Shown: positions 16,196-49,415 of the stretch, in pieces
Position numbering within the stretch: the stretch's first letter is position 1
Layout: each line of letters opens with the position of its first letter
From: Colwellia psychrerythraea 34H
GTDB lineage: Bacteria; Pseudomonadota; Gammaproteobacteria; Enterobacterales; Alteromonadaceae
Reading direction: 5' to 3'
Assembly (NCBI RefSeq): GCF_000012325.1
Contig: NC_003910.7
Span: 2,976,001 to 3,040,000, forward strand
Length of the DNA stretch: 64,000 nt
Position numbers and translations under genes: made by a program
The notes under the pieces: model-generated
Seen by the model: only the letters and a program-made list of their open reading frames with translations
Told to the model about the DNA's origin: nothing
The model's database searches: none

Positions 16196-18847
16196 CTAAA
16201 AGCCATATTTTTCTTTTCTTCTATTAAATGCGTCCTCGCCACCCTCAAGAATTTTGGCAGCAAGATTTTGAATATTTGGCTGATCTATTGAGCCTTGATT
16301 CTGAATAGGCAAAGTTGCATTTTCATTCGTTGACTCCAAAACTCCAATCCACTCAGCGTCACCAAAAACAGGTATGTTTGCGTTATGAGTAGCAAAAATA
16401 AACTGTCTAGTTAGTTTGGCATCTCGCACCTGAGTAACAATTCGCTCTGCTATAAATGCGTTGTCGAGATTATCTTCAGGTTGATCTAAAAGTAGAGGAT
16501 CTTGGTTATCAAGTAAGAGCATGTGCAATAATGCTGTACACTGTTGACCTGTTGATAATGAATCAAGTTTTTTATATAAAGGCTCATCATTACTCGAAAC
16601 ATTCAACTCAATGCTAACCAAATCATCGATCTTAAACTCTTCAATTTCCATTATTTGTTTATTGCTGATTTTTGATAATCTATCAGCGGTAGTGGAAGTC
16701 ATCCCCCAATCTTTCTCTAATAAAGCAGCCTGTCCTTTCTTGATAGTCTCTGCTAATAGAGGGGCCGAGAACTCCTCTACTCCTTTCATCCAAGAAAGTC
16801 TTCCCTCAGCGACATCAGATAAACGATAGCTTACGATGAGTTTTATTAATCCAAGTCTGTTTTTTTCTGCTGAGTAATTTACCTTTATATTGCCCTTTAA
16901 TTTTCTATTCAGCCTTTTTACGCCCTTTTCAAAGGCGGTAGCTCGGTTGGTTTTTTTCTCGGACAACTCAGCCAGCAGTGCCTTTCTTGTAGCTATTTCT
17001 TTGTCCAGTTTACCTTGTTCATTTACAAGTTCCGCACGTTTGGGTTTTAATCTCTCGATATTTTTAATTAGATCCCGATATTGTTCACCAATTTGTTTTC
17101 CAGTTAAACCTTCAACAGGAGCCAATTTTTTAAACTCTTTAGTGATAGAGTCTTCTTGTTTCTCTATGCTTTCTTGAAGTTCTTTATCAAGTAGTTCTAT
17201 CTTCTGCTGAGAACTGTCTGAATCAAGTTCCATTTTTTCAATAGATAGATTGATGTTATCTTTTAATTCAACTAAGGCTAATTTAGCATTTTCAAATATT
17301 GTTTTATCGGGAAATTCCTTAATCGACTCTTCGGTAATAAAGTCAGCGCATGGGATAGATTCAGAAAACTCTTTTAGTGCTTCCTTTAACGTTTCCATCT
17401 TTCCTGAAACAGTTTTGAAGGTACTTCTTTCCGACTCAACGATTGGTAATAGTTTCAATTGCTGGTCTATTCCAAGCTCTTTATACCTATTTTCATCTTC
17501 CTCGTGAGCCTTCAAGTCTTCCACATCAGATTCCATGCTAGAGACACTAGATGTTAAATCAGATATATTATTTCTTGTTGTAACTAACGACTCTTTAACT
17601 GTTGAAATACCTGACTCTTGCTCAATTTTATCTGTATTTAGAAATCGCTCTACTACTTTTAGTTGTTCACTTGATTCTTTGGCGATTTCATGAATTTCAT
17701 TTTGACCAAAGATTTCAATATCAGGTAATAAGTCTCTAGGAGAAAAAGTAGAAACAGATCCGCTTTCATCTTTTACTATCGGGGATTCACCATAGCGTCT
17801 TGATATTTTATATAATTTTCCATGTTTTACTGCTGATTTGACAGTCAATTCAGCGAACCCTGAACCAAGATTCTGCTTTATAACTTTAAGGTGCTGTGCT
17901 TTTGTTTCTTTACTAATAGGTTCAATATTTAACACATAACGAATTGACTCTATTAAAGTCGATTTACCTGTTCCTCTACCGCCTATTAAAGCATTTAAAT
18001 GCTCGGAATAGTTGATATGAATTCCATCGAGAAACCCACCAACAAACCTAACAGCCTCTATTCTAGAGTAATATTTCTCTTTAATATCAGAGTTGAGGCG
18101 AACACGAGATTCAGAATCTGAAAACGCTAGTTTAAATGAGGAAAAACAAGGTTTTGTCATTTTCACCAAGCAAGTCGCATTTTCTTTTCTTAATGTTTCA
18201 GGATCTTCGATATCTTTAGCATTTATAATCGCAATATTTTTTTCACGCATATAATCAGGATTTTTATTTAGAAGGATCTGGTGATTTGCTTGATCACCTT
18301 GCTCTTTAAGGGCTTCTAATGAAGTAGGTATTTGTGCAGCATGTAAATTCGGGTTTTTCCAAATGTTGTTTAATTTTTGTTTTAAAACCCCGCTGTCATC
18401 TGTGCAATGTGCAGCGTACACAAAGCCACCTTTATCTATAACGGTTGACAGAATAAAGTCTGCACTTTTAGTTGATGGATTTGTGCCGTTAGAAGTATCT
18501 ATGTCAAACTCATATAAATAATTATTTAAAGTTTGAAGACTTGTATCTTCTGGGTATAAACAAACTAAATGTATTTTCTCGCTAGATGCAATTTCAAACC
18601 CTGGAAAGACGATGACTCCTTGAGCATTAAAGGTTTCTTTGATTTTCACAACAGAATCAACATTACCATGATCGGCTATTCCTACAACTTTTATTGATTC
18701 CTCAAGGCAGACTTCTAATAGTCTCTGATTGTAGTCATCTTCTGAAATATCCTGATTTTTCCCTCGGTACTGTATATAACTTGCAGGGTTTACTTGTAAT
18801 GCGCACTTCCAGAATTTTGCCCTAGTATGCTCAACAGCAATATTCAT
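16196..18847 (-). CDS. Degenerate-PHP domain fused to SMC/ABC-type ATPase, probable defence protein
   Basis: About 883 residues from the ATG at 18847, which has AAGGA 7 bases upstream. Longer readings to 18952 merely translate the attC site. Residues 1-250 form a PHP-phosphoesterase-like domain: IADHGNVDS, FPGFEIASSEKIHL and AAHC are kept, but the first metal motif HxH is changed (ALQVNP). A Walker A GGRGTGKST follows near residue 293, a long coiled coil, the signature LSTGQQ, Walker B LLLDQPEDNLDN and H-loop ATHNAN. This pattern is that of SMC-like ATPases such as the TrlF family, often seen in defence islands. The degenerate PHP suggests nucleotide or nucleic-acid sensing, or altered catalysis. 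Not an operon partner but the next cassette after a TIR-like gene. Confidence 0.8.
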   Translation of the reverse strand: MNIAVEHTRAKFWKCALQVNPASYIQYRGKNQDISEDDYNQRLLEVCLEESIKVVGIADHGNVDSVVKIKETFNAQGVIVFPGFEIASSEKIHLVCLYPEDTSLQTLNNYLYEFDIDTSNGTNPSTKSADFILSTVIDKGGFVYAAHCTDDSGVLKQKLNNIWKNPNLHAAQIPTSLEALKEQGDQANHQILLNKNPDYMREKNIAIINAKDIEDPETLRKENATCLVKMTKPCFSSFKLAFSDSESRVRLNSDIKEKYYSRIEAVRFVGGFLDGIHINYSEHLNALIGGRGTGKSTLIESIRYVLNIEPISKETKAQHLKVIKQNLGSGFAELTVKSAVKHGKLYKISRRYGESPIVKDESGSVSTFSPRDLLPDIEIFGQNEIHEIAKESSEQLKVVERFLNTDKIEQESGISTVKESLVTTRNNISDLTSSVSSMESDVEDLKAHEEDENRYKELGIDQQLKLLPIVESERSTFKTVSGKMETLKEALKEFSESIPCADFITEESIKEFPDKTIFENAKLALVELKDNINLSIEKMELDSDSSQQKIELLDKELQESIEKQEDSITKEFKKLAPVEGLTGKQIGEQYRDLIKNIERLKPKRAELVNEQGKLDKEIATRKALLAELSEKKTNRATAFEKGVKRLNRKLKGNIKVNYSAEKNRLGLIKLIVSYRLSDVAEGRLSWMKGVEEFSAPLLAETIKKGQAALLEKDWGMTSTTADRLSKISNKQIMEIEEFKIDDLVSIELNVSSNDEPLYKKLDSLSTGQQCTALLHMLLLDNQDPLLLDQPEDNLDNAFIAERIVTQVRDAKLTRQFIFATHNANIPVFGDAEWIGVLESTNENATLPIQNQGSIDQPNIQNLAAKILEGGEDAFNRRKEKYGF

Positions 18848-18878
18848 ATATTCATCCTTAAATTTAACACCGAAGCTA

Positions 18879-18989
18879 GCAGGGCTTAATAACGCCGCGA
18901 TAAGCGGAATATTACTGTTGGCTACAATGTTTGAGGCACGAAAAACAGCCAACTGTAAATTTTCCGTTTGATTGCCTTGTTAGCTGTAC
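18879..18989 (-). other. attC site A (after TIR-like gene)
   Basis: Minus strand: R'' GTACAGCTAAC, L'' ATCAAACGGA (18963-18989), central TTACAGTTGGCTG paired with TAGCCAACAGTAA, L' TCCGCTTATCGCGGC, R' GTTATTAAGC (18884-18907). R'' is the exact 11-base complement of GTTAGCTGTAC at the start of the same cassette (19862-19872), as expected for a mobile cassette. Confidence 0.88.
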
Positions 18990-19000
18990 TTTACACCGAG

Positions 19001-19843
19001 CTATTTTTTTGGTGCTTGTTGTACATACCCATAGCTTTGTTGAGGTATTGGAGCAAACAATTTAGCAATGGTGTCTTCATATTTTAAGCAAATATCGACG
19101 CCATAATCAGTTAAACGATAAGTAAAATATTCATTGCCATTAAAGTCGCTTCCATTCTCTTTCTGAATTAAGCCAATTCTTTGCAGTTTAACTACAGCAA
19201 GATTTAGGGTTGGTGTCGGAATATGCTGTTGAATTTTATTAGGTAAGTCCCAGCTTATACAGCCTTCGACATCGTTATTGTAACTTTCTAGCAATGAACC
19301 CAAGATTATAAGATCATTTTCTGATACGTCACTTAATACATTATTAACATCAAGCTTTTGAACTTTAGGTGTACTAATCTCTTTGAACACACCTTTATTA
19401 TTCATTTCCCTTTTTATTTGCGTTGAAGCATAGGTTAATGATGATGTTAAGTTATCATCGGAACGATTGGGATCATAATCTGTTGGCGTTATACCGAGTA
19501 AATCACTTGGGAAATGTAGCTCTACATCACGAGGCTTTATAATAAAGCATCTTTCTTTACCGATAGAACCAATAAACAAACCAAGCTCAAAGAGTACATT
19601 ATCTCGTACAACATACTGTTCCCTTGACCGCATAATAGCCAAGTCATCAGGAGAAAATATAAAAGCTGAAAAATCTACTGATTTAGACTTTAAAATAAGA
19701 TCATCTAACGTATTACTTGATAAGTTAAATGTACCACTACGCCATATAGTAACTTCAGCATCAAACTCTAAATTTTCAGCTATTGCGTCAGCTATAGGTA
19801 AACTCTCTACTGAGGAGCCTATGAATATTCTCGGTTTACTCAT
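19001..19843 (-). CDS. TIR-like nucleotide-binding protein (PF10137/CAP12-type), probable defence effector
   Basis: 280 residues from the ATG at 19843 (MSKPRIFIGSS); an in-frame ATG at 19861 abuts the recombination box and is less likely. Residues 4-135 match the TIR-like domain: FIGSSVES, VTIWRSGTF, DFSAFIFSPDD, and the catalytic-type VRDNVLFELGLFIG with Glu, then KERCFIIKP and LPSDLLG. Such domains hydrolyse NAD or bind nucleotides in Pycsar/CBASS-like antiphage systems. Residues about 170-270 form a winged-helix-like domain (LAVVKLQRIGLI, YRLTDYG). First cassette of the array. No cyclase gene is adjacent, so how it would be activated is open. Confidence 0.82.
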   Translation of the reverse strand: MSKPRIFIGSSVESLPIADAIAENLEFDAEVTIWRSGTFNLSSNTLDDLILKSKSVDFSAFIFSPDDLAIMRSREQYVVRDNVLFELGLFIGSIGKERCFIIKPRDVELHFPSDLLGITPTDYDPNRSDDNLTSSLTYASTQIKREMNNKGVFKEISTPKVQKLDVNNVLSDVSENDLIILGSLLESYNNDVEGCISWDLPNKIQQHIPTPTLNLAVVKLQRIGLIQKENGSDFNGNEYFTYRLTDYGVDICLKYEDTIAKLFAPIPQQSYGYVQQAPKK

Positions 19844-19861
19844 TTGTGACCAAATCTCCAT

Positions 19862-29551: not shown

Positions 29552-30247
29552 ATGAGCCAATTTATTGGTGTGTTTAACAATGCCCTATCCGATGAACTCT
29601 GCGACAAACTCATGCAAGGCCATCAAAAAAGTAATAAAGTCGTTAGTGGTCGAGTTGGTAGCGGTGTGAATACAGACCTAAAAGATAGTCATGATGTCAC
29701 TATGGTTGATAAAGAGTGGCAAGCACTGCAACTTGAACTTGTAAATGCCAGCTATCCCCATGTAAAAGCTTATTTAACTGAGCATTATATGGCATTAATT
29801 TCAGCACTGAATCCAACGGTGACAGATCCAGAAACAGGCATGCCTGCTTCAGTGACTAAAGAGAACTTTGACCGTTTAGGCACCGCTTATCTAGACCAAC
29901 TGATCCAGTACGTTTTTTGCTACGACAACTTTACTGTTCAACAATATGAGCAAGGGGTTGGTGGTTATCATTACTGGCATTCAGAAATTTTTCCGCAACT
30001 GCCGCACAATAAACCACTACACAGAGTCTTAGCCTTTTTGTATTACTTAAATGATGTCGAAGAAGGTGGCGAAACTGAATTTCATTATCAAGGAATAAAA
30101 GTTAAACCTAAAAAAGGTTCTTTAGTTATTTTTCCTGCGGGTTTTACTCATACACATAAAGGTCATATTCCACTTTCTGACGAGAAATATGTAGTCACTT
30201 CATGGTTAATGTATAACAAAGCTGAACAGCTCTACGGTAAGAAGTAA
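29552..30247 (+). CDS. 2-oxoglutarate/Fe(II)-dependent oxygenase, prolyl-4-hydroxylase-like
   Basis: 231 residues. The double-stranded beta-helix motifs are visible: GYHYWHSE (iron ligands, here H-x-E rather than the usual H-x-D), RVLAFLYYLNDVEEGGETEFHY, then KKGSLVIFPAGFTHTHKGH with the distal His and the 2-OG-binding basic residue in EKYVVTSWL. Cytosolic; it probably hydroxylates a protein or small molecule. AAGGA lies 10 bases before the ATG. It converges on the PqqD/ATP-grasp operon but is on the other strand, so a link to that pathway is only possible. Confidence 0.85.
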   Translation: MSQFIGVFNNALSDELCDKLMQGHQKSNKVVSGRVGSGVNTDLKDSHDVTMVDKEWQALQLELVNASYPHVKAYLTEHYMALISALNPTVTDPETGMPASVTKENFDRLGTAYLDQLIQYVFCYDNFTVQQYEQGVGGYHYWHSEIFPQLPHNKPLHRVLAFLYYLNDVEEGGETEFHYQGIKVKPKKGSLVIFPAGFTHTHKGHIPLSDEKYVVTSWLMYNKAEQLYGKK

Positions 30248-30414: not shown

Positions 30415-31305
30415 TCAATCTTTGTTTTGCTCACTTAAGTTGTTATTTAAAAACTCTCGTACAGCTGCTTGTGCATCAAGGTGTGCTTGTTTGTTATAAC
30501 CAACACGGACACTTCCCCAGGGCTGTTGCTTTGATTCTCGCCGAACATTATTTAATAACTGGTAGCGCTGTTGTTGATCATCAAAATTATGATACGCCCC
30601 AGTAAACGTCCATAATTGCTGTTGTGAATCAGCTTTACTGTTATTTAATAGTTGCTGACAATGAATTGGTTGAGTCCATTCATCGTCTTGACCCATCAAA
30701 ATGCGTACAGGTACATTAGCTTTATATTGTTTACCCGACATTAGGTACTGTTGGTACTGCCAACAGCTCGGATAAAATGCGATGCCAGCACTGTAACCTT
30801 GCTTTTTTGTAGCAAAATTCTGCTCTAATACTTTTAATGTTATGGCACCGCCATAAGACCAGCCGAATAAAACAATGTTGTCTGGATTTACTTCACTAAG
30901 TGATTGTAAATAATTTAGTGCTACCAAAGCATCTTTAGGTCTTCGTTGGTTAAACTGTTGCCATATTTTGTCATCGGCTGTACAAATATCTTTGATACCT
31001 AAGTAACTAAAGCTATCTACAATCAATGTTGTATAACCCCATTCATTCAGGGTTTTGCTCCACTGATGGTGTTTATTTGAAACTCCATAACAGCCATGTA
31101 GTAAAACAGCAGCAGGATGGGGTCCAACTCCTTTAGCGTGCATTAAGGTAGCTGACATCGAATATTTATCTTCCGAGTCAGTGTTCGACAACAAGATAAC
31201 TTTTCCCTGCTGATTTTCAGGCAACTGCAATAATATCAGCGCTATAACCGCCATACAGATAGCGAGAAACACGATTAGTTTTAACTTGGTCAGGATAGTT
31301 GTCAT
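30415..31305 (-). CDS. Alpha/beta hydrolase, dienelactone-hydrolase family, membrane-anchored
   Basis: About 296 residues. An N-terminal hydrophobic anchor (LIVFLAICMAVIALILLQL) places the catalytic part outside the membrane. The fold markers are LLHGCYGVS (oxyanion region), the nucleophile elbow GWSYGGA, the acid region MGQDDEWT and a late His (GAYHNFD). The start is the ATG at 31305, which overlaps the stop of the previous gene as ATGA; an ATG at 31314 is also possible. Last gene of the PqqD/ATP-grasp operon, where it could hydrolyse or release the product. Confidence 0.8.
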   Translation of the reverse strand: MTTILTKLKLIVFLAICMAVIALILLQLPENQQGKVILLSNTDSEDKYSMSATLMHAKGVGPHPAAVLLHGCYGVSNKHHQWSKTLNEWGYTTLIVDSFSYLGIKDICTADDKIWQQFNQRRPKDALVALNYLQSLSEVNPDNIVLFGWSYGGAITLKVLEQNFATKKQGYSAGIAFYPSCWQYQQYLMSGKQYKANVPVRILMGQDDEWTQPIHCQQLLNNSKADSQQQLWTFTGAYHNFDDQQQRYQLLNNVRRESKQQPWGSVRVGYNKQAHLDAQAAVREFLNNNLSEQNKD

Positions 31306-32951
31306 TTTTTCCATTTACAGCCCCACTTCAACGGATGGAGTAGATTTATGAACCCATTAATCTCTGCTAGCCAGTGCGCGATGTCACCTGTGAGCTGTAC
31401 ATCTTTTTCTTCTACGAAATAACCAAAGGGTATTGTACCGATAAAAATAATGGGTATTTTATTAGCGTTGGCGTTTTCGATAATCATCGACACTACGGGG
31501 GTTATTGTAGGTACACCAATCACCAACAAACAGCCACATTCCATCATATTTTTTTGCAAGGCTTGGTAACATTCTGAGTCAATATTTTCATCTGCAGCCA
31601 GAATTTGTGGCTTTAATAACCCCGAACAATGTTGACAATGAAGATCGCGTTGTGACCACAGAGGTATAGGAGGCCACGCTTGCTGCTTCGCGCAATCAAG
31701 GCAATATAACCTTTTTATTGAACCATAACATTCGTAAACCGGATGCTGTTCGGTATTAAAAAGGCTATCAACTGTTTCAGTAAATAACCCCGATAAATAA
31801 TGGTTCAACAAATAATCGAGTTGTTCATCAATGTTATTTTTGTTAATTGTCAACGCTTGCTGATAATAGTCATAGGATGCTTTCCAGTAGAGATAACGGC
31901 AACGTTTCGATGCTTTAAATTCAGCCAAAGTATAACTAGTGATTGGGACTTTGGGATCTAACCATTGCCCGGAGGGATAATCTGGTAGTGTTCCTTTACG
32001 TATTCCTGAGCCCGTAATAGCCACACATTGTTTAGCCCTTAAGCGATTGATTAGCATTAGCTTAAATGTTCTCCAAAGCTCGCTTTGTAGTAAGTTATGA
32101 TTTATATATTGTCTGTACAAACTTAGTGTTATCAAGCTGCTCATGATAAAGGGGATTAACAGAGGCGCACTTAACTGCTCTAATCCAGTGATAAACCAGA
32201 AATACCAAATAATCCATGCTAACAGCGCATTAAATGTTGCCGCTAAGCTAGCTAACCTAGCATGTTTTAAAAATAGCGTTTTTATCGAGAAGTAAGCCAG
32301 CACTAAGTTAATTGCCCATAAGTCGACCAAAGCATATAAATTTAATCCCGTTAACCATTGAGCTACGAGGCCACCTGTTAAGCTGATCCCAAGGGTTTGT
32401 AACGTGGCTAGCGGATATTGATACGCCATAGCAGACACCACGAGAATTATCGCAACTTCTCTGCTATATGTTTGCAAGACAGGCTCAGCCGCCCCTGTAA
32501 ATAAAAGATGGTTTGTATCGAAGGAAAACAATGAAATGGTGAATACCATGACCAAAATACTAACCATAGCGGGAAGAGACAATATTGGCAGTTGCTTTGG
32601 AATGAGCAAAGCGCGTAATCGAAATTCAATCAACAGGCAAATTAGCAATGTAACAAGAAACAAGCACAATCCCATGATGCTAAATATAGAGTCGCCCCAA
32701 TACATACCGACTATTGCGCCGTTATAACCTGCGATGCCAAGCCTCCATTCTTGCACAGTGTAATCTTTAATGACGAGGCTTAAGCTATTGTTAATTAATA
32801 CACCTAGCAGAGCCGCAACAGCCGACCATACAGCAACCATGGCAATGGCTAAAAAAATTAATAGACCAGACGTTTTTCGGTCTAAAAAGGCAAGTTGGGC
32901 GAATGACCTGCATTGAACGGTAAAATGATTGTTAAAATTGACATTTATCAT
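31302..32951 (-). CDS. Fusion: urea-transporter-like membrane domain plus degenerate Sir2-like domain
   Basis: About 549 residues from the ATG at 32951 (longer starts overlap the upstream gene further). Residues 1-300 hold about ten membrane segments and urea-transporter-family features: FLDRKTSGLLIFLAIAM, AALLGVLI, GIAGYNGAIVGMYWG and a second repeat with LLFTGAAEP and GLNLYALVD. Residues about 315-540 resemble a sirtuin: AITGSGI (usual GAGIS), LPDYPSG, FTETVDSLF (usual TQNIDGLH), ECYGSIKRLYC (the catalytic HG is YG), a four-Cys zinc ribbon CLDC...CQHC, then VIGVPTITP and IIFIGTIPF. Loss of the catalytic His suggests NAD(-like) binding without deacylation. Middle of the operon; function unknown. 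Confidence 0.72.
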   Translation of the reverse strand: MINVNFNNHFTVQCRSFAQLAFLDRKTSGLLIFLAIAMVAVWSAVAALLGVLINNSLSLVIKDYTVQEWRLGIAGYNGAIVGMYWGDSIFSIMGLCLFLVTLLICLLIEFRLRALLIPKQLPILSLPAMVSILVMVFTISLFSFDTNHLLFTGAAEPVLQTYSREVAIILVVSAMAYQYPLATLQTLGISLTGGLVAQWLTGLNLYALVDLWAINLVLAYFSIKTLFLKHARLASLAATFNALLAWIIWYFWFITGLEQLSAPLLIPFIMSSLITLSLYRQYINHNLLQSELWRTFKLMLINRLRAKQCVAITGSGIRKGTLPDYPSGQWLDPKVPITSYTLAEFKASKRCRYLYWKASYDYYQQALTINKNNIDEQLDYLLNHYLSGLFTETVDSLFNTEQHPVYECYGSIKRLYCLDCAKQQAWPPIPLWSQRDLHCQHCSGLLKPQILAADENIDSECYQALQKNMMECGCLLVIGVPTITPVVSMIIENANANKIPIIFIGTIPFGYFVEEKDVQLTGDIAHWLAEINGFINLLHPLKWGCKWKK

Positions 32952-34317
32952 CACGCAGTCGGCCTGGTAATAGATCAAGCGCAAATATATCTTTGTAAGT
33001 CTCGGCACGTCTTATAAGTTCTGGCCCATGCTCACCTAATAATATGGTCGCGGGTCTGGGTTGAATAAACTGATTCGACTGAGTATGGCAATATGCACCA
33101 ACATTACCGATACTGAGATGATCGCCGACATTTAATGCAGGCATCAATATTTGCTCACGCAATCTATCACTTTGCATACACAAAGGACCAAAGATATCGA
33201 CTGGCTTTAATAACCCTCTTTCTTCGCTTTTCGTTGCGGCAACTGTCTTTATTTGATGATTGTAGTAACAAACGGTAGGAACCAGATTAACCCCTGCATC
33301 AATAATAACCGCGTTTCGACCTCCAACTATTTCTTTCTTTGCAATGACGGTGCTTAAGAGTTGTGTCGAGGCATCGACTATCGCTCGTCCAGGCTCTAGT
33401 ATCAATGTTGGGTTATTTCCAAACAACTCACTATGTTTACGTAATTGCCCGAAAATATGTTCCGCATAAGGTAGCAAGTAATCATTATTTGCACGTTGAC
33501 TGCCTCCGGGTAAGTCATACTCAGGTCTAAGCGTATTGGCCGAAGGAAAGCCCCCACCAATATCTATACTCGTCGGGTTGAGCCCTATTTCTCGTGCTTG
33601 TTTTGCTAATTCTATGAGCTTTTCGACGGCATTGGCATAAAGTTCATGGACCAAAACAAAGGTACCCACATGACAGTGGAAGCCTTCAAATTGTAGTTTT
33701 TTATTGCGAGCGATTTTTTTCAGCGCATTTAAACTTTCTCCATTTTCATTGTTAAAGCCAAACTTGGTCCATGGGTTGGTGCCATAACGAAAATTCACTC
33801 GAATAGCCACTCTAGCAGGGGTAATGAGCTCCTCAGAAATTCTGTCTATGTGTTCTAGTTCATTGAAATTATCAATGTTTACTAACGCCCCCTCGCTAAG
33901 TGCCAATTTCAGTTCTGACTGAGTTTTATGGGGCCCGTTAAATATAATATCTTTGCCCGGGATACCCAAGGTGCGTGCTAACTCATATTCCATGCCAGAA
34001 ACTACTTCAGCTTGGGCACCTTCTTGACGAAGAATGGCGCAAACTGCTGGTAAGTAATTAGTTTTTATGGAATATGCCACTTTGGTTTTAACGTGTTCAT
34101 CACTAAAACTGCGTTTGAAGTTTTTAAAATCTTGACGTAATCTTTGTTCTGAAACTACATAAAGTGGAGAGCCAAACTTTTGCAATAACCCAACAGTATC
34201 CAGAGTTAAGGGTTCATCTGCTGCTACCGTTATATTATGGAGTTGGTGTTTCTCCAAAGCCAAAAATGGCAAAACCTCTATAATTGGCCGATGATAGGGT
34301 TTAAGTGCAATTGTCAT
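32932..34317 (-). CDS. PLP-dependent decarboxylase, DapDC/ODC fold type III
   Basis: About 461 residues from the ATG at 34317, 4 bases after the previous stop and preceded by AAGGA; upstream in-frame ATGs are within the ATP-grasp gene. Alanine-racemase-type TIM barrel: PLP lysine in AYSIKTNY, HCHVGT, IDIGGGFPSAN (phosphate loop) and EPGRAIVD. The C-terminal barrel has GPLCMQSD (catalytic Cys) and NVGAYCHTQSN. These are features of diaminopimelate/ornithine-type decarboxylases. It is not the housekeeping lysA in context; it probably decarboxylates an amino acid or a ligated product of the adjacent ATP-grasp enzyme. Confidence 0.85.
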   Translation of the reverse strand: MTIALKPYHRPIIEVLPFLALEKHQLHNITVAADEPLTLDTVGLLQKFGSPLYVVSEQRLRQDFKNFKRSFSDEHVKTKVAYSIKTNYLPAVCAILRQEGAQAEVVSGMEYELARTLGIPGKDIIFNGPHKTQSELKLALSEGALVNIDNFNELEHIDRISEELITPARVAIRVNFRYGTNPWTKFGFNNENGESLNALKKIARNKKLQFEGFHCHVGTFVLVHELYANAVEKLIELAKQAREIGLNPTSIDIGGGFPSANTLRPEYDLPGGSQRANNDYLLPYAEHIFGQLRKHSELFGNNPTLILEPGRAIVDASTQLLSTVIAKKEIVGGRNAVIIDAGVNLVPTVCYYNHQIKTVAATKSEERGLLKPVDIFGPLCMQSDRLREQILMPALNVGDHLSIGNVGAYCHTQSNQFIQPRPATILLGEHGPELIRRAETYKDIFALDLLPGRLRDDKCQF

Positions 34318-34321
34318 GATA

Positions 34322-36526
34322 TCAATTTTCCTTAATTTGGTCTGAAGCAATTCGATTATGATGTAGATATCCCTTGGTCGAAAAAGAGGCTAACTGATAA
34401 GGCTGTAAACGTAGTTCAGTAGAACTTCTTACAAATACCAGATTTGTTTTGTCTGGTTCAGGGATGATTTCTTCACCTAGTGCGGTATGGACAGCCTGTT
34501 GGGGATGGTTCGATCCTAGTGTTGCTGAGTAATAGATCCAGCCAGTAAAACGTGGATTGATCTCGATAAGATAAAAACGGTCTAGGATCTCGTCTCTAAT
34601 GAATTCGCCCTCTACCGGCCCAACCCATTTGATCTCTTTTAAGAAGCGGGCAAAGGCTGCTTCTAATTCTACTTGTGGCAAACGCATGGCTCGCCAGGTG
34701 CTGCCCTTGGGGCATAAACTCAATTTTTTTACCGTTAGCATCGTTAGCGGTTCGTGCCGATGGTTACATACGGTAGCCACTGCAAAACTTGGCCCGCTGA
34801 TCATTGGCTGAATCAAGACTTCTTTCATTCCATCATAATAGAGTGTGTGCCATGCAGCTTTTGCCTGACTTTCATCAATGACTGACACACAAAATGAGAT
34901 AGGTCCTTTTACCACGGCAGGTAAGCCGACTTTTTTAACGGCTGCTAATACTTCATCTTCATTACGGGCACTAATAGTTTCAGGTATTATAAAGCCCTGT
35001 TGATCCGCCTCATAAATGCCACTAAATAGTTGTGTTTTACTGCGTTTTTCAAAACTATCGAGGTTGGGTAATAAAGTATGAACGCCCATTCTTTTTAGCT
35101 CATCGGCAAATTTAATAAAAAAGGGTATTTCGCCATCTAAACAAGGAATCAACACATCGATGGGCTGCATTTGAATAATTTTTTTAAAACGCTCGAATAA
35201 GGTATTTTCATTTTCTGTTATAGGTAACTGAAAACAAACATCAAACAACTCTTTGTTATAAGCCCCAGAATCAAAGGTGCCATAACATAGACCAATTAAA
35301 TGCAAGTCGTCAGAAGCACTGCGCAACGCTCTGGCAACGCCAATACCCGAATTAACAAGATCAAAACTACTGGTTCCGGTAACCGCGACACGCAGTCCGC
35401 CTCCATTAGTTATTGGTTTATTGTTGTTATTACTTGGTAATTGACAGTTATTCATTTCTGTCATATTTATGTGGCCATGACGATCCAGATGTTGCATGTC
35501 ATCGAGTCGCACTACGTCTTCTGTGATACTACGAACTAACAACGGGGCCTCATTTGAACGATTTAATGGGACTATCGTTTCATCAACCTCAGGTTCAGTT
35601 AATAGTTTCAGTAGTTCTACGGCTAAGTTTTTATTGGCCCAATGAGCCAGCATACACCAATCAGGGAGACAGGATTTGACGCCTTCTAAAAAGTAAATTG
35701 AACCACCAGTTGGGTGGATTAAATCTAAAGTTATAGGTCCCTGAGCACCTAGCTTTTTGATGATTTCCAGTCCTTGCGCCTCTAAATCTGGGCTATCTAT
35801 GATGCTGCTGCAAACCGAATGACCATTACTATTTATAGCCAGTTTTCTACATGAGAGGTTTTCAATGCGCTCACCATCTTGATTAATGAGGCAAACCAGC
35901 GAATAAGCTTCACCGGCAATACGCGCCTGTAGTAGTACTCCTGAGCGTCTATCTCGCTCAAGCACCGCAGATGAAAAACGTAATACCTGTTCGGCGTTAT
36001 GGGCAATTAATTCCAACTCTGCCCCTTTGACTAGCACAGGATAACCAAGATGATCGGCATAATGTGCGACTTCATGCAAATGGTGGGCAATTAAACTGTG
36101 AGGGTATGCGATATGATTTTGGTGTAGATAAGAAGCTAAGGTAAGTGGACTCAACTGAGCCATTTTATCGGCATTGGGTACCAGTGTGTTTATGCCATTT
36201 TTATGTAGTCGATCTGCTAGTCTTGCCGTGGCAGCAATATCTTGTTCTAAACACGGGATAAAAGCATTAAATCCTAGTTTGTTTTGTGCATTGATTAAGC
36301 TTAAATAAAACGCTTCATCTCCTTTAAGAGGGCTTTGGATTCGTGTCACTGTATCAACTATTCCGGGTTGCCAAGCTCCGGTCATAGCGGAATCATCAAC
36401 CAGAGCATCAATAATAAGTGGTCCCTGCCAACCTGCACGTAATGCACGAGCAACACTGGCTCCTGCATGTGGAATATCAAGACCACCAAAACCAGAAATG
36501 GCGACTCGAGTATTAGAAGTTTTCAT
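34322..36526 (-). CDS. Tandem ATP-grasp protein, CarB-like double module
   Basis: About 734 residues from the ATG at 36526, which has AGGA 8 bases upstream and overlaps the PqqD gene by 14 bases. Two pre-ATP-grasp plus ATP-grasp modules: module 1 (about 1-330) begins RVAISGFGGLD, module 2 (about 375-720) begins RVAVTGTSSFDLVNSGIGVARAL. Module 2 keeps the metal-binding YLIEINPRFTGW. Module 1 has YFLEGVKSCLPDW at that place and so is probably inactive or structural. ATP-grasp enzymes join carboxylates to amines through acyl phosphates, so this is the likely ligase of the pathway. Confidence 0.85.
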   Translation of the reverse strand: MKTSNTRVAISGFGGLDIPHAGASVARALRAGWQGPLIIDALVDDSAMTGAWQPGIVDTVTRIQSPLKGDEAFYLSLINAQNKLGFNAFIPCLEQDIAATARLADRLHKNGINTLVPNADKMAQLSPLTLASYLHQNHIAYPHSLIAHHLHEVAHYADHLGYPVLVKGAELELIAHNAEQVLRFSSAVLERDRRSGVLLQARIAGEAYSLVCLINQDGERIENLSCRKLAINSNGHSVCSSIIDSPDLEAQGLEIIKKLGAQGPITLDLIHPTGGSIYFLEGVKSCLPDWCMLAHWANKNLAVELLKLLTEPEVDETIVPLNRSNEAPLLVRSITEDVVRLDDMQHLDRHGHINMTEMNNCQLPSNNNNKPITNGGGLRVAVTGTSSFDLVNSGIGVARALRSASDDLHLIGLCYGTFDSGAYNKELFDVCFQLPITENENTLFERFKKIIQMQPIDVLIPCLDGEIPFFIKFADELKRMGVHTLLPNLDSFEKRSKTQLFSGIYEADQQGFIIPETISARNEDEVLAAVKKVGLPAVVKGPISFCVSVIDESQAKAAWHTLYYDGMKEVLIQPMISGPSFAVATVCNHRHEPLTMLTVKKLSLCPKGSTWRAMRLPQVELEAAFARFLKEIKWVGPVEGEFIRDEILDRFYLIEINPRFTGWIYYSATLGSNHPQQAVHTALGEEIIPEPDKTNLVFVRSSTELRLQPYQLASFSTKGYLHHNRIASDQIKEN

Positions 36527-36821
36527 AAACAAATCCTGTGCCACTGAGTTGTTGAATGAAAAGTAGTGCATCTTGTCTGGCTTCTATAACCGACACATCG
36601 AATCGACTGGTCAATGCATCAGCTAGTTGGTCGCAAGTGGTGCCATTTTGTAAAGCGACCAACAATACCCCTGCACTGTCATTACAGGTACAAATAGCTC
36701 CGCTGCGGTTGTCTATCAATACCCACTCATTTTCCTCTAGACCGGGTTCTAGAGAAACCCAAGAACGAAGCGCAAATTGTTGAGGAATGGTAATCTGCTC
36801 TCTATTGGTAAAACTATTCAT
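36513..36821 (-). CDS. PqqD-like (RRE-fold) protein
   Basis: 102 residues with the PqqD pattern: WVLIDNRSGAICTCNDSAGVLL, then TTCDQLADALTSRFDVS and ARQDALLFIQQLSGTGFV. PqqD-type domains bind precursor peptides in RiPP pathways and hand them to modifying enzymes. A good ribosome-binding site AGGGAAAG precedes the ATG. First gene of the five-gene operon. No PqqA, PqqE or radical SAM gene is in the window, so this is not a PQQ cluster. Confidence 0.85.
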   Translation of the reverse strand: MNSFTNREQITIPQQFALRSWVSLEPGLEENEWVLIDNRSGAICTCNDSAGVLLVALQNGTTCDQLADALTSRFDVSVIEARQDALLFIQQLSGTGFVYENF

Positions 36822-36914: not shown

Positions 36915-37250
36915 TTAGCCATAATCAACGAGATAATGGTCTATCTCTGGGTAAATATCTCGAGGTATTGATAGCTTTATGAGGGCACTTACACATTTAA
37001 ACGATGAAAGTGAGATAACAAACCAGAGGCAAAAGGATCGATAACAATCTAAAAAGGATAAGTACATTTTAAAATTTGCTAATGAAGAATTGCCTGATTT
37101 ATGAAGATATAAACCAATTGGCGACGGCATATTGAATTGAAGGCATAGGAAATGATAAAAAACGATTAAAAGGTTGGTTTTTCTCTGTGGCATAAATTGC
37201 GCCACTGATAATGCTGATTGATAACAGGTGGTGAGAAAATATTGACTCAT
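36915..37250 (-). CDS. Doubtful small ORF upstream of the PqqD operon
   Basis: 111 residues beginning MSQYFLTTCYQ with GGGGG 7 bases before the ATG. Composition is odd: rich in Ser, Leu, Phe, Tyr and Cys, no clear domain, no obvious signal peptide. It is the only ORF of this size just before the PqqD-like gene on the same strand, so it could be a precursor peptide or a chance ORF. An overlapping frame (37099-37296) is open too, which lowers confidence. Confidence 0.3.
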   Translation of the reverse strand: MSQYFLTTCYQSALSVAQFMPQRKTNLLIVFYHFLCLQFNMPSPIGLYLHKSGNSSLANFKMYLSFLDCYRSFCLWFVISLSSFKCVSALIKLSIPRDIYPEIDHYLVDYG

Positions 37251-37936
37251 AATGATACCCCCGAAGTATGAAAATTAATCCATATTTACCCCTCAAACAG
37301 CGATATACATTGGCAAAGTAAATATTTTTTACTAATTTACAAAAAGTTTAGCCTATAAGAGCATTTTTGCAATTGATTGAATTAGTCAGTTAAGGGTATA
37401 TTTTAAAGGATATTCACAATGTTCTGATTAATATTATTTTTAATATATTCAATATAAACAAAAGCTTTTTTAATTTTCATTAGCTGTAAATCGTACAATT
37501 AAACGCATAATTCAAGCCAAGAATTATTTAGATAATTTAACTATCTATTGAGTGGTATACCTCTTTTTAGTGAAAACAGGTTACCGGAACAGCCTTTATT
37601 CAATGCCTTTTTCTGTGGTTTTATATCCCTTACCAATTGAGATACATGGTGCAGAATCCTTTGAATTATTTCAATTCAAAGGATTCCAATAAAATAATGG
37701 TAATAGCTATAAACATGTTATGACTTTAAATACTTTAACCCTTTTGATGTAAATCAATTGATCATTACTAAATTAGCTATAAGCGAATGATATTGGTAAT
37801 ATTACTAATGCTGTATTACTTTTAAAGTAGTAACGCTTTTATGTTCAATTATCCTCAAATAAAATTTATTTTAATTTTACCTTTTTGAGATAAAAACTAT
37901 TGAACACACTCACCTAGTTTAAGGAATAGTTTTTCT
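37251..37936. other. Long AT-rich intergenic region
   Basis: 686 bp without a credible gene apart from the tail of a doubtful overlapping frame. It should hold the promoters of the PqqD operon (minus) and of the GGDEF gene (plus). A ribosome-binding AAGGAA lies about 11 bases before the ATG at 37937. No terminator or RNA gene is evident. Confidence 0.5.
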
Positions 37937-39202
37937 ATGCAAACAGCAAAAAATCCTCAGAAAAGCAAAGAACTTTATGCCGCTATTTCACTGATATTTT
38001 TATCTTTACTCATCTTAGTACTACTATTTCTCAACATTGATAAGCATAAGGTAATCAATTTAAATGCTGCAGATATTAAGGTTGTGGATGACCGTGAAGT
38101 GCTGGGTGCATCGGTTGCAAAAGTAGTAAAAACCAATCATGGTCTTGAATTTACCTGCCAAATAACAAAATCTCATCTAGCTCAGCCTTATTGTGAATTA
38201 ATCATAAATCTACAAGATTTAAGCAAACAATCCCCCTTTACTGGTTTAGACTTATCTAATTATGAGCAAATCGGCTTATGGATTAAACATAATCACCCTA
38301 CACAACCGGGTACTCGTATTGAGTTACGTAACTTTAATACTAATTATTCTGTAAAAGGAAACGAAACAATATTAAAACCCAATAGCGTAGAGTATTTAGA
38401 AGCATACGTTACTAACCCTATTTGGTTAAAATCATCTGATTTTTCTATCCCCCGATGGTGGAATAACAGCCATAATTTAACGCTAAATAATGGTGGTACT
38501 GATTTTTCAAATATTTATTCCATTGCCATAACACCCACCTTGCAAGTTCAGCCAGGGAAATATGAGTTAACCGTTGAACGCATTGAATTAAAAGGCAAGT
38601 ATATTGGCACAACAACACTTGTTGCCGTTCTAATTATGTTATGGAGCATAGCGTTGGGCTATGTTATTCGACGCTTAGTGCCAGCTAAAAAACTAGAGGT
38701 TGAAATACCTGAACAAGCGAGTCATACCATTGAATTTGGTGCCATGAGTTGCCCGCTAACAGGTGCACTAAATCGCATTGGATTACGAAAATGTTTTGAT
38801 CAATTGGCGCCTACTGATCTACAAAAATTAAGCATTATCTTCCTCAATATCGATTATTTTGAGGACCTTTATCCAAATTATGGTCATAAAACAGCAGATA
38901 AAATTCTACAGCAGTTTGTCAATGAAGTTGATAATACCTGTCGCTCTAGTGATACGGTAGCTCGATGGAATTCAGAAGAGTTTTTATTAGTATGCCCAGA
39001 CACTGAATTATCTCAAGCGATTGATGTTGCGGATAAAATAAGAGCAAGAATACAGAAAGCCACCTGGCCAAATGATATTAAAATAACCTGTAGTTCCGCT
39101 GTCGCACAAATGTATGATGAAGATCTTAATGATTTAATTACCCGTGCAAATAAAGCGCTGTATAAGGCAAAAAATACCGGCAGTAACAAAACAGCAGCTT
39201 AA
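37937..39202 (+). CDS. Membrane GGDEF-domain protein, variant active site
   Basis: 421 residues: a TM helix at about 15-33, a periplasmic beta-rich domain at about 40-215 (resembling carbohydrate-binding jelly rolls), a second TM at about 222-245, and a cytoplasmic GGDEF domain from about 265. The domain start CPLTGALNRIGL and the inhibitory RSSD motif are present, but the active-site loop is NSEEF in place of GGDEF. It may therefore be a weak cyclase or a c-di-GMP/GTP-binding sensor. Monocistronic. Confidence 0.85.
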   Translation: MQTAKNPQKSKELYAAISLIFLSLLILVLLFLNIDKHKVINLNAADIKVVDDREVLGASVAKVVKTNHGLEFTCQITKSHLAQPYCELIINLQDLSKQSPFTGLDLSNYEQIGLWIKHNHPTQPGTRIELRNFNTNYSVKGNETILKPNSVEYLEAYVTNPIWLKSSDFSIPRWWNNSHNLTLNNGGTDFSNIYSIAITPTLQVQPGKYELTVERIELKGKYIGTTTLVAVLIMLWSIALGYVIRRLVPAKKLEVEIPEQASHTIEFGAMSCPLTGALNRIGLRKCFDQLAPTDLQKLSIIFLNIDYFEDLYPNYGHKTADKILQQFVNEVDNTCRSSDTVARWNSEEFLLVCPDTELSQAIDVADKIRARIQKATWPNDIKITCSSAVAQMYDEDLNDLITRANKALYKAKNTGSNKTAA

Positions 39203-48991: not shown

Positions 48992-49067
48992 TCCCCAATA
49001 GCTCAGTTGGTAGAGCGATGGACTGTTAATCCATGTGTCACTGGTTCGAGCCCAGTTTGGGGAGCCA
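48992..49067 (+). tRNA. tRNA-Asn (GTT), copy 1
   Basis: 76 nt including encoded CCA. Acceptor stem TCCCCAA pairs with TTGGGGA; D-arm GCTCAGTTGGTAGAGC; anticodon loop CTGTTAA with anticodon GTT; T-loop GGTTCGAGCC. Closely like E. coli tRNA-Asn. First of four identical copies in one transcript. Confidence 0.97.
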
Positions 49068-49107
49068 CATTCAACTTCATTAATAAACAGAAGTTAAAAA
49101 AGTTTAT

Positions 49108-49183
49108 TCCCCAATAGCTCAGTTGGTAGAGCGATGGACTGTTAATCCATGTGTCACTGGTTCGAGCCCAGTTTGGGGAGCCA
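49108..49183 (+). tRNA. tRNA-Asn (GTT), copy 2
   Basis: Identical to copy 1, 116 bp downstream. The 40-bp spacer contains an AACTTC/GAAGTT hairpin that also repeats between the other copies, a possible processing signal. Confidence 0.97.
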
Positions 49184-49223
49184 CATTCAACTTCATTAAT
49201 AAACAGAAGTTAAAAAAGTTTAT

Positions 49224-49299
49224 TCCCCAATAGCTCAGTTGGTAGAGCGATGGACTGTTAATCCATGTGTCACTGGTTCGAGCCCAGTTTGGGGAGCCA
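49224..49299 (+). tRNA. tRNA-Asn (GTT), copy 3
   Basis: Identical to copies 1 and 2, same 116-bp period and same spacer, showing recent tandem amplification or gene conversion. Confidence 0.97.
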
Positions 49300-49339
49300 C
49301 ATTCAACTTCATTAATAAACAGAAGTTAAAAAAGTTTAT

Positions 49340-49415
49340 TCCCCAATAGCTCAGTTGGTAGAGCGATGGACTGTTAATCCATGTGTCACTGGTTCGAGCC
49401 CAGTTTGGGGAGCCA
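49340..49415 (+). tRNA. tRNA-Asn (GTT), copy 4
   Basis: Identical to the other copies. It is followed at 49431 by a terminator that ends the tRNA transcript. Confidence 0.97.

Follow-up and report, generated by a model that had tools for sequence, protein, structure and literature searches.

A recurring PqqD, ATP-grasp, FigC-like decarboxylase and urea-transporter fusion gene cassette and its local form in Colwellia psychrerythraea 34H

A five-gene operon of Colwellia psychrerythraea 34H, carried by a stretch of 64,000 nucleotides of contig NC_003910.7 (positions 2,976,001 to 3,040,000; hereafter the window, in which positions are counted from the first letter), is the local form of a recurring gene cassette that encodes a PqqD-fold protein, an ATP-grasp protein, a FigC-like decarboxylase and a membrane protein with a fused urea-transporter-type (UT) domain. 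As judged from sequence comparisons, the cassette may ligate an amino acid to a partner, decarboxylate the resulting conjugate, and release and pass the product by means of the UT fusion, a tentative reading to which a probability of roughly 0.38 is given.

The Colwellia operon and the conserved cassette

The genome of the window consists of one contig of 5,373,180 bases. All five open reading frames (ORFs) of the operon lie on the minus strand, are read from 36821 to 30415, and overlap or nearly abut their neighbours:

36513..36821, minus strand: PqqD-fold protein of 102 amino acids (aa), gene 1 of the operon (Pfam PqqD, expectation value E = 1.2e-11)
34322..36526, minus strand: double ATP-grasp protein, likely 734 aa (longest ORF reaches 36571)
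32932..34317, minus strand: pyridoxal 5'-phosphate (PLP) decarboxylase of fold III (alanine-racemase fold), FigC/FslC-like (longest ORF reaches 34350)
31302..32951, minus strand: membrane protein, UT-type domain fused to Sir2, 549 aa (longest ORF reaches 33008)
30415..31314, minus strand: dienelactone-hydrolase-like hydrolase, terminal gene (Pfam DLH, E = 7.7e-19)

The likely starts of the ATP-grasp, decarboxylase and UT-Sir2 genes lie inside the longest ORFs and were placed from homologue lengths and alignments; with these starts, three of the junctions overlap, by 14, 20 and 13 bases, and the other is a gap of 4 bases. An identical five-gene order was present in three other Colwellia loci (L008, L009 and L010), and all five genes are under purifying selection between the four Colwellia genomes. 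The ratio of nonsynonymous to synonymous substitution rates (dN/dS), calculated for the window copy against the three other Colwellia copies, was 0.03-0.05 for pqqD, 0.08-0.11 for the ATP-grasp gene, about 0.04 for the decarboxylase gene, 0.13-0.15 for the UT-Sir2 gene and 0.17-0.28 for the hydrolase gene. As the gene order is the same in the three other Colwellia and dN/dS ranges from 0.03 to 0.28, the operon goes beyond chance, and the earlier note on this DNA, which had read five genes overlapping or 4 bases apart as a single operon, was right on this point. Its domain calls (PqqD, ATP-grasp, fold-III PLP decarboxylase, UT with Sir2, hydrolase) also proved correct in domain searches. The operon is patchy in the genus, since a full-length ATP-grasp match was obtained in 3 of the 37 Colwellia genomes searched, the own genome included; weak matches were present in G022, G028 and G039 (E about 1e-4).

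Homologues of the double ATP-grasp protein were sought by an alignment-based search (match threshold E <= 1e-30) in 398 genomes of the window's phylum, 385 genomes of the class of G094 (taken as Alphaproteobacteria from its GcrA genes) and 274 genomes of the window's own class. Matches were found in 37, 4 and 11 genomes, respectively, the first and last counts including the own genome. The 57 loci compared comprised all 52 matching places outside the own genome (20, 15 and 17), the window, the three other Colwellia loci and one phage locus. As the loci were picked by the ATP-grasp gene alone, the neighbouring genes offer a genuine test of the cassette. In all 57 loci the ATP-grasp gene is followed on its own strand, at a distance of no more than 300 bases, by a decarboxylase gene; six of these loci encode a decarboxylase below 440 aa, which runs off a contig, is fragmented or, as in the phage, is simply short. 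A PqqD match precedes the ATP-grasp gene by no more than 300 bases in 55 of the 57, the remaining two (L111 and L116) ending at a contig edge on that side; in L087 the match sits at the edge of a contig and is reduced to a stub of 45 residues. The UT fusion was found within 2500 bases downstream in 49/57 loci, that of L104 being weak, partial and at a contig end. Four of the eight loci without it downstream (L023, L059, L079 and L114) are cut short, and L114 possessed a UT-M23 gene upstream rather than downstream.

Beyond this core, the same-strand gene runs contained a cluster of tetratricopeptide repeat (TPR) proteins in 31 loci, which may mix unrelated repeat proteins because the clustering was done by BLAST, and a barrel-like cluster in 27 loci; besides these two, the only cluster to recur in more than four loci was a mixed one without annotation, spanning 12 loci. 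The terminal hydrolase, whose N-terminal hydrophobic stretch was judged by eye to be a membrane anchor, clustered in the four Colwellia loci only, among the 57, and is a local addition outside the conserved core. The anchored hydrolase of the earlier note is therefore present as a gene but is not a member of the core. A plasmid search (61 records) yielded partial matches at about 22-26% identity among the 20 listed, and a second search yielded none at E <= 1e-40. With wider sampling around two matches (1 and 9 genomes), the starting genome alone matched each time.

Several further genes were observed downstream of the cassette at individual loci: a second UT domain, accompanied by TPR repeats, in L061 (2072-3643) and L058 (1397-3319), a tyrosinase-type gene in L082 (3429-4988), and a NodU-like carbamoyltransferase gene in L057 (13128-14963).

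Around the Colwellia operon itself, an ORF at 36915-37250 (P0006), considered as a sixth gene, had a dN/dS of 0.47-0.75 and an uneven length, and is probably not coding. Rfam searches upstream of the operon returned matches below gathering scores only, and no signal emerged from promoter-like sites (17, against 24.1 in shuffled sequences) or terminator-like sites (7 against 6.3). Between the operon and the following gene, which is found at 37937 and looks GGDEF-like by eye, there is an inverted repeat (37654-37686) with perfectly matching arms of 14 bases and a loop of 5 bases. At the other side, a 2-oxoglutarate-Fe(II) oxygenase gene (29552-30247, plus strand) faces the operon end from the opposite strand; a 231-aa opposite-strand ORF also adjoins the operon in L008-L010.

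The decarboxylase family

A profile built from 14 cassette decarboxylases (A2) was compared with the PDB. FslC/FigC scored 338 bits, followed by diaminopimelate decarboxylases (up to 255 bits), the D-ornithine/D-lysine decarboxylase (195 bits), BtrK (160 bits) and ornithine decarboxylases (about 102 bits). On these profile scores, the nearest solved relative is, by a clear margin, the N-citrylornithine decarboxylase FigC/FslC. The FigC residues T327, Y331, M355 and Y383 aligned with T359, Y363, M392 and Y420 of the cassette enzyme, the numbering having been counted by hand from FigC C354. The scores and aligned residues display the features of the FigC/FslC-type 'clade 2', namely FigC as the nearest relative, a Met beside the catalytic Cys, and Thr/Tyr on the specificity helix. 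According to the available part of the FigC study, this type of clade is set outside polyamine metabolism, and the citrate contacts H357 and R387 of the FigC pocket were predicted by docking (PMC7857480). In the cassette enzymes H357 is replaced by Ile/Ser and R387 by Gln, and the diaminopimelate-binding Arg by Thr. Since these contacts are replaced, neither citrate nor diaminopimelate seems to fit the pocket, and the far end of the pocket looks neutral, the distal-pocket positions in the family being Asn/Gln/Thr/Trp/Tyr.

Sequence signatures were well conserved among the 51 full-length cassette enzymes: GP/GS-x-CM[NQ] was present in 50, W.[RK]FGF in 49, CM[NQ] in 50, GAY..TQ in 50, and a permissive specificity-helix pattern in all 51. 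The LysA motif C-[ED]-[ST]-x-D occurred in none of them (0/51) and is present in the LysA of the own genome. Moreover, the Colwellia enzyme scored 251 bits with TIGR01048, below the cutoff of 297.9, and the separate LysA of the same genome scored 482 bits, above it. Motif, score and separate LysA together rule out a diaminopimelate decarboxylase of the lysine pathway, so that, of the earlier note's DapDC-fold decarboxylase, the fold stands and the diaminopimelate decarboxylase identity falls, the latter also on the profile comparison. With the N-citrylornithine decarboxylase model NF041039 of NCBIfam, the score was 225 bits against a cutoff of 500. Of the four other decarboxylase matches in the genome, three were checked, LysA among them, and all three lack the cassette signature.

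At E <= 1e-90, the profile search retrieved 4660 proteins among the 8000 candidates scored. The organism names among the 120 matches listed included Mariprofundaceae, Magnetococcales, Persephonella, Aquificae and Desulfofervidaceae, and the protein names among them were 'diaminopimelate decarboxylase' or 'alanine racemase' only. The signature was present in 7/7 proteins read, including P0205 and P0227 (Aquificota by name) and one from Desulfofervidaceae; for these proteins the decarboxylase sequence alone was considered.

Two cassette types and a phage-borne copy

The cassettes fall into two types. Type I, found in most loci, combines a single ATP-grasp domain with a UT-M23 fusion protein some 720 residues long. 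Type II has a double ATP-grasp protein and was found in seven loci, in six of which a UT gene is visible, and the fusion is UT-Sir2 in all six (the window, L008, L009, L010, L077 and L078). Among the other 43 loci with a UT gene, at least one M23-type motif (THx(4-9)AxDF or PHxHxxxQ) was found in 41; L103 and L104, which lack both motifs, are truncated at contig ends. The type II decarboxylases formed one supported clade (99/99) in a tree that carried long-branch warnings, some of them on type II rows, and that was used for this clade only.

ATP-grasp enzymes rely on a phosphate-binding Lys and on [ED]xN metal ligands. In the C-terminal half, [ED]xN was kept in 22/22 double proteins. In the N-terminal half of the same proteins, ExN occurred in ten, DxN in two and neither in ten, including the three Colwellia-type rows; judging by these motifs, the first ATP-grasp half of the Colwellia protein has lost catalytic residues. 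The C-terminal half matched 'carbamoyl phosphate synthase-like' models, all below their cutoffs. The PqqD protein likewise scored below the cutoffs of the five curated PqqD models listed, the lasso-peptide PqqD model giving a sub-cutoff match with E = 4.7e-10. It measures 255-276 aa in 22/57 loci, and the extra part of the long form matched TetR_N in L044, the one tested.

The UT model (PF03253) was matched over its full length by the three type I fusions tested (178-209 bits) and over about half its length by three type II fusions (42-63 bits). The Colwellia UT domain scored 56.9 bits against a Pfam cutoff of 25 and covered profile positions 3-137 of 292. Sirtuin deacylase catalysis depends on a His and a Gln-Asn motif. 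In the Colwellia Sir2 domain, a Tyr replaces the catalytic His and Glu-Thr replaces Gln-Asn in 4/4 loci, with the four zinc cysteines kept; the Colwellia site looks dead, and the Sir2 motifs of L077 and L078 are intact. As the degenerate Sir2 domain and the ATP-grasp N-terminal half are still under purifying selection (dN/dS of about 0.11-0.16 and 0.10-0.12, respectively), both are kept for some role. On the C-terminal side of the final predicted membrane segment there are two to seven Lys/Arg residues in the 8 type II proteins and in 12 of the 28 type I proteins listed, a weak sign that the C-terminal domain is cytoplasmic, as a Sir2 dependent on nicotinamide adenine dinucleotide (NAD) would need.

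The phage locus (L041 / L093, 3444-5922) lies on a tailed-phage contig of 65,709 bases (IMGVR_UViG_3300047160_011268), where the PqqD, ATP-grasp and decarboxylase genes abut, without a UT gene. This contig also encodes a DNA polymerase, a helicase, a primase, and major head and internal virion proteins, and the locus is the only viral one encountered in two IMG/VR scans. The phage ATP-grasp gene had no match in 50,697 phage records; among named phages, distant decarboxylases were found in 11 records (25-28% identity).

A known anti-phage defence system was also considered for the operon, and none of its five proteins had a PADLOC match at E <= 0.01. Elsewhere in the window, a TIR protein of the CAP12/Pycsar type (19001-19861, minus strand; Pfam E = 3.1e-33) adjoins an ATPase of 918 aa whose PADLOC matches are Ppl- and AriA-like (16196-19861, minus strand, for the two genes), and the two are a possible anti-phage pair. 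Four tandem tRNA-Asn genes are evenly spaced at 116 bases (48992-49415, plus strand).

Possible chemistry, alternatives and known systems

In the reaction order proposed here, the C-terminal half of the ATP-grasp protein would activate a carboxylate and form an amide with an amino acid, and the PqqD protein would dock or present the acceptor. The FigC-like PLP enzyme, whose class is assigned from sequence, would then strip the alpha-carboxylate from the amino acid of the presumed conjugate; the amine that remains would be neutral and amide-like at its far end. Release or editing of the small product may come from the hydrolase part of the fusion (M23 in type I or Sir2 in type II), which would cut an amide bond, and the UT-type membrane domain could let the product through. 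More speculatively, the added hydrolase of Colwellia might have taken over the step of the dead Sir2, or the Sir2 domain might now only bind. The amide chemistry is weakly supported by the asparagine-synthase-type gene found downstream of the cassette in L058 and L061, and the general idea of ATP-grasp ligation, decarboxylation and transport, already expressed in the earlier note, fits the conserved core.

Several observations weigh against this proposal. The asparagine-synthase-type gene occurs in two loci only, and no carrier-peptide ORF recurring near the cassette was found (in more than 2 of 24 loci, at E < 1e-3). Four loci (L041, L056, L110 and L115) have room downstream yet lack a UT gene, so the UT gene is not essential to the chemistry. 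Passage through the Colwellia UT domain is uncertain because this domain is diverged and matches over half its length. The number of predicted membrane segments varies from 7 to 10, the cytoplasmic position of M23/Sir2 derives from loop charges, and an M23 domain in the cytoplasm would be unusual. Finally, as the type II decarboxylases form one clade, the pairing of Sir2 with the double ATP-grasp protein may reflect one evolutionary event and not repeated evidence.

Four alternative explanations were weighed. In a scaffold-peptide pathway resembling those of ribosomally synthesized and post-translationally modified peptides (RiPPs), the PqqD protein would be a RiPP recognition element, and a peptide encoded elsewhere would receive an amino acid from the ATP-grasp enzyme, which would be followed by decarboxylation of the added residue and release of the product by M23/Sir2. 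PqqD-family domains bind leader peptides (PMC12710340, in its available part), carrier- and peptide-bound substrates occur in the same decarboxylase clade according to the accessible part of PMC7857480, and the sub-cutoff lasso-peptide match points the same way. Such a pathway nevertheless appears unlikely: when 1933 ORFs of 20-120 aa, taken from both strands and from 4-6 kilobases on each side of 24 of the 57 loci, were compared, small ORFs clustered over at most 2/24 loci (E < 1e-3), BLAST being insensitive on short peptides, and the long PqqD proteins, of which the one tested matched TetR_N, also permit a regulatory role. A RiPP with a local precursor, taken as a candidate of its own, received no support from this comparison, a remote or very short precursor being possible, and the peptide substrate suggested in the earlier note did not gain support from a test that is weak for very short peptides. 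Its remark that no radical SAM or known RiPP enzyme is present agrees with the domain searches of the five proteins. A product of nitrogen or polyamine metabolism that is a urea derivative or an amide is improbable; here the substrate of the decarboxylase would be a free amino acid whose end is neutral (for example citrulline- or glutamine-like), and the UT domain would move the urea- or amide-like product. The neutral distal-pocket positions, the resemblance of the ATP-grasp C-terminal half to 'carbamoyl phosphate synthase-like' models (all sub-cutoff) and the full-length UT domain of the three type I proteins tested are in keeping with it. However, as only the TPR, barrel and one mixed cluster recur in more than four loci, no urea or polyamine partner stands out among the recurring neighbours, some of which are annotated, the NodU-like gene of L057 being a single case; and FigC-type enzymes are placed outside polyamine metabolism in the available part of PMC7857480.

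The closeness of the decarboxylase to FigC/FslC, its nearest solved relative, would also be expected of a rhizoferrin-type siderophore pathway, in which an amino acid is coupled to citrate and then decarboxylated. This is very improbable, since a synthetase of the nonribosomal-peptide-synthetase-independent siderophore (NIS) type and a receptor are absent among the five operon proteins, and the docking-predicted citrate contacts are replaced; on the loss of these contacts the rhizoferrin-type candidate was rejected. A role in lysine or peptidoglycan metabolism, with a second diaminopimelate decarboxylase and an ATP-grasp ligase, plus an M23 peptidase in type I, would agree with the fold and the database name 'diaminopimelate decarboxylase', and M23 proteins are usually peptidoglycan endopeptidases. 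With the motif missing from every full-length cassette enzyme, and with the own LysA above and this enzyme below the TIGR01048 cutoff, this role is hardly credible. 

Ligation, decarboxylation of the conjugate and release through the UT fusion is the tentatively preferred reading. A broader proposal, which is itself doubtful, is that the cassette may represent an undescribed class of metabolite system, found in Pseudomonadota of more than one class and in part on a phage, with a decarboxylase family that extends to Aquificota. Such a system would combine PqqD-guided ATP-grasp ligation, decarboxylation on the conjugate, release by interchangeable M23 or NAD-dependent Sir2 domains, and export of the urea-channel type. 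No description of the cassette gene combination was found by searches, aimed at the combination or at the decarboxylase, of the open full-text literature, from which subscription papers are mostly absent; the earlier note's statement that the operon matches no pathway holds for this literature, in searches aimed at the gene combination. The neighbourhood analysis run from the ATP-grasp gene, which that note had suggested, revealed a widespread core and homologous operons without a product description in the same literature.

The 51 full-length enzymes examined are something other than the database names listed for the family suggest, and the family is large, as reflected by the number of proteins retrieved. 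The cassette defines a unit that recurs and whose reaction order can be tested, and it ties urea-channel domains to biosynthesis; its two alternative hydrolase partners, M23 and Sir2, provide a handle on the bond cut. Identification of the product would give Mariprofundaceae, Magnetococcales and cold-sea Colwellia a named metabolite, and the novelty at the system level would rise if the idea of release through a channel were true.

Among known systems, the urea transporters of PF03253 share the UT domain, at full length in the type I fusions tested, but in the cassette this domain is fused to M23 or Sir2 inside a biosynthetic gene run, and the type II match is half-length. The PqqD fold is common to the cassette protein and the PqqD-family RiPP recognition elements (lasso, pyrroloquinoline quinone, GeoRSP, HPr-rel-A), from which the cassette differs by its sub-cutoff scores, the lack of a precursor nearby and the lack of a radical SAM gene in the operon. 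In butirosin biosynthesis, BtrJ is the ATP-grasp ligase. BtrK/BtrI resemble the cassette: after ligation to a carrier, the amino acid is decarboxylated, while still bound to that carrier, by an enzyme with the same fold (PMC7857480, in its available part). BtrK is a more distant match, and the cassette has a PqqD protein in place of an acyl carrier protein. MccE of microcin C belongs to the same decarboxylase clade and acts on a peptide-linked substrate (same source and part), whereas no peptide gene was found near the cassette. The rhizoferrin pathway of Francisella (FigA/FigC, or FslA/FslC) follows the order proposed for the cassette: an amino acid is first coupled to a partner by a ligase, and the conjugate then goes to a decarboxylase of the alanine-racemase fold. 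The ligase there is an NIS synthetase, here an ATP-grasp protein, and the PqqD protein and UT fusion have no counterpart in the Francisella pathway as presented in the available part of PMC7857480. The chemistry proposed for the cassette resembles that of FigA/FigC and that of BtrJ/BtrK, in that the ligation of an amino acid would precede the decarboxylation of the conjugate.

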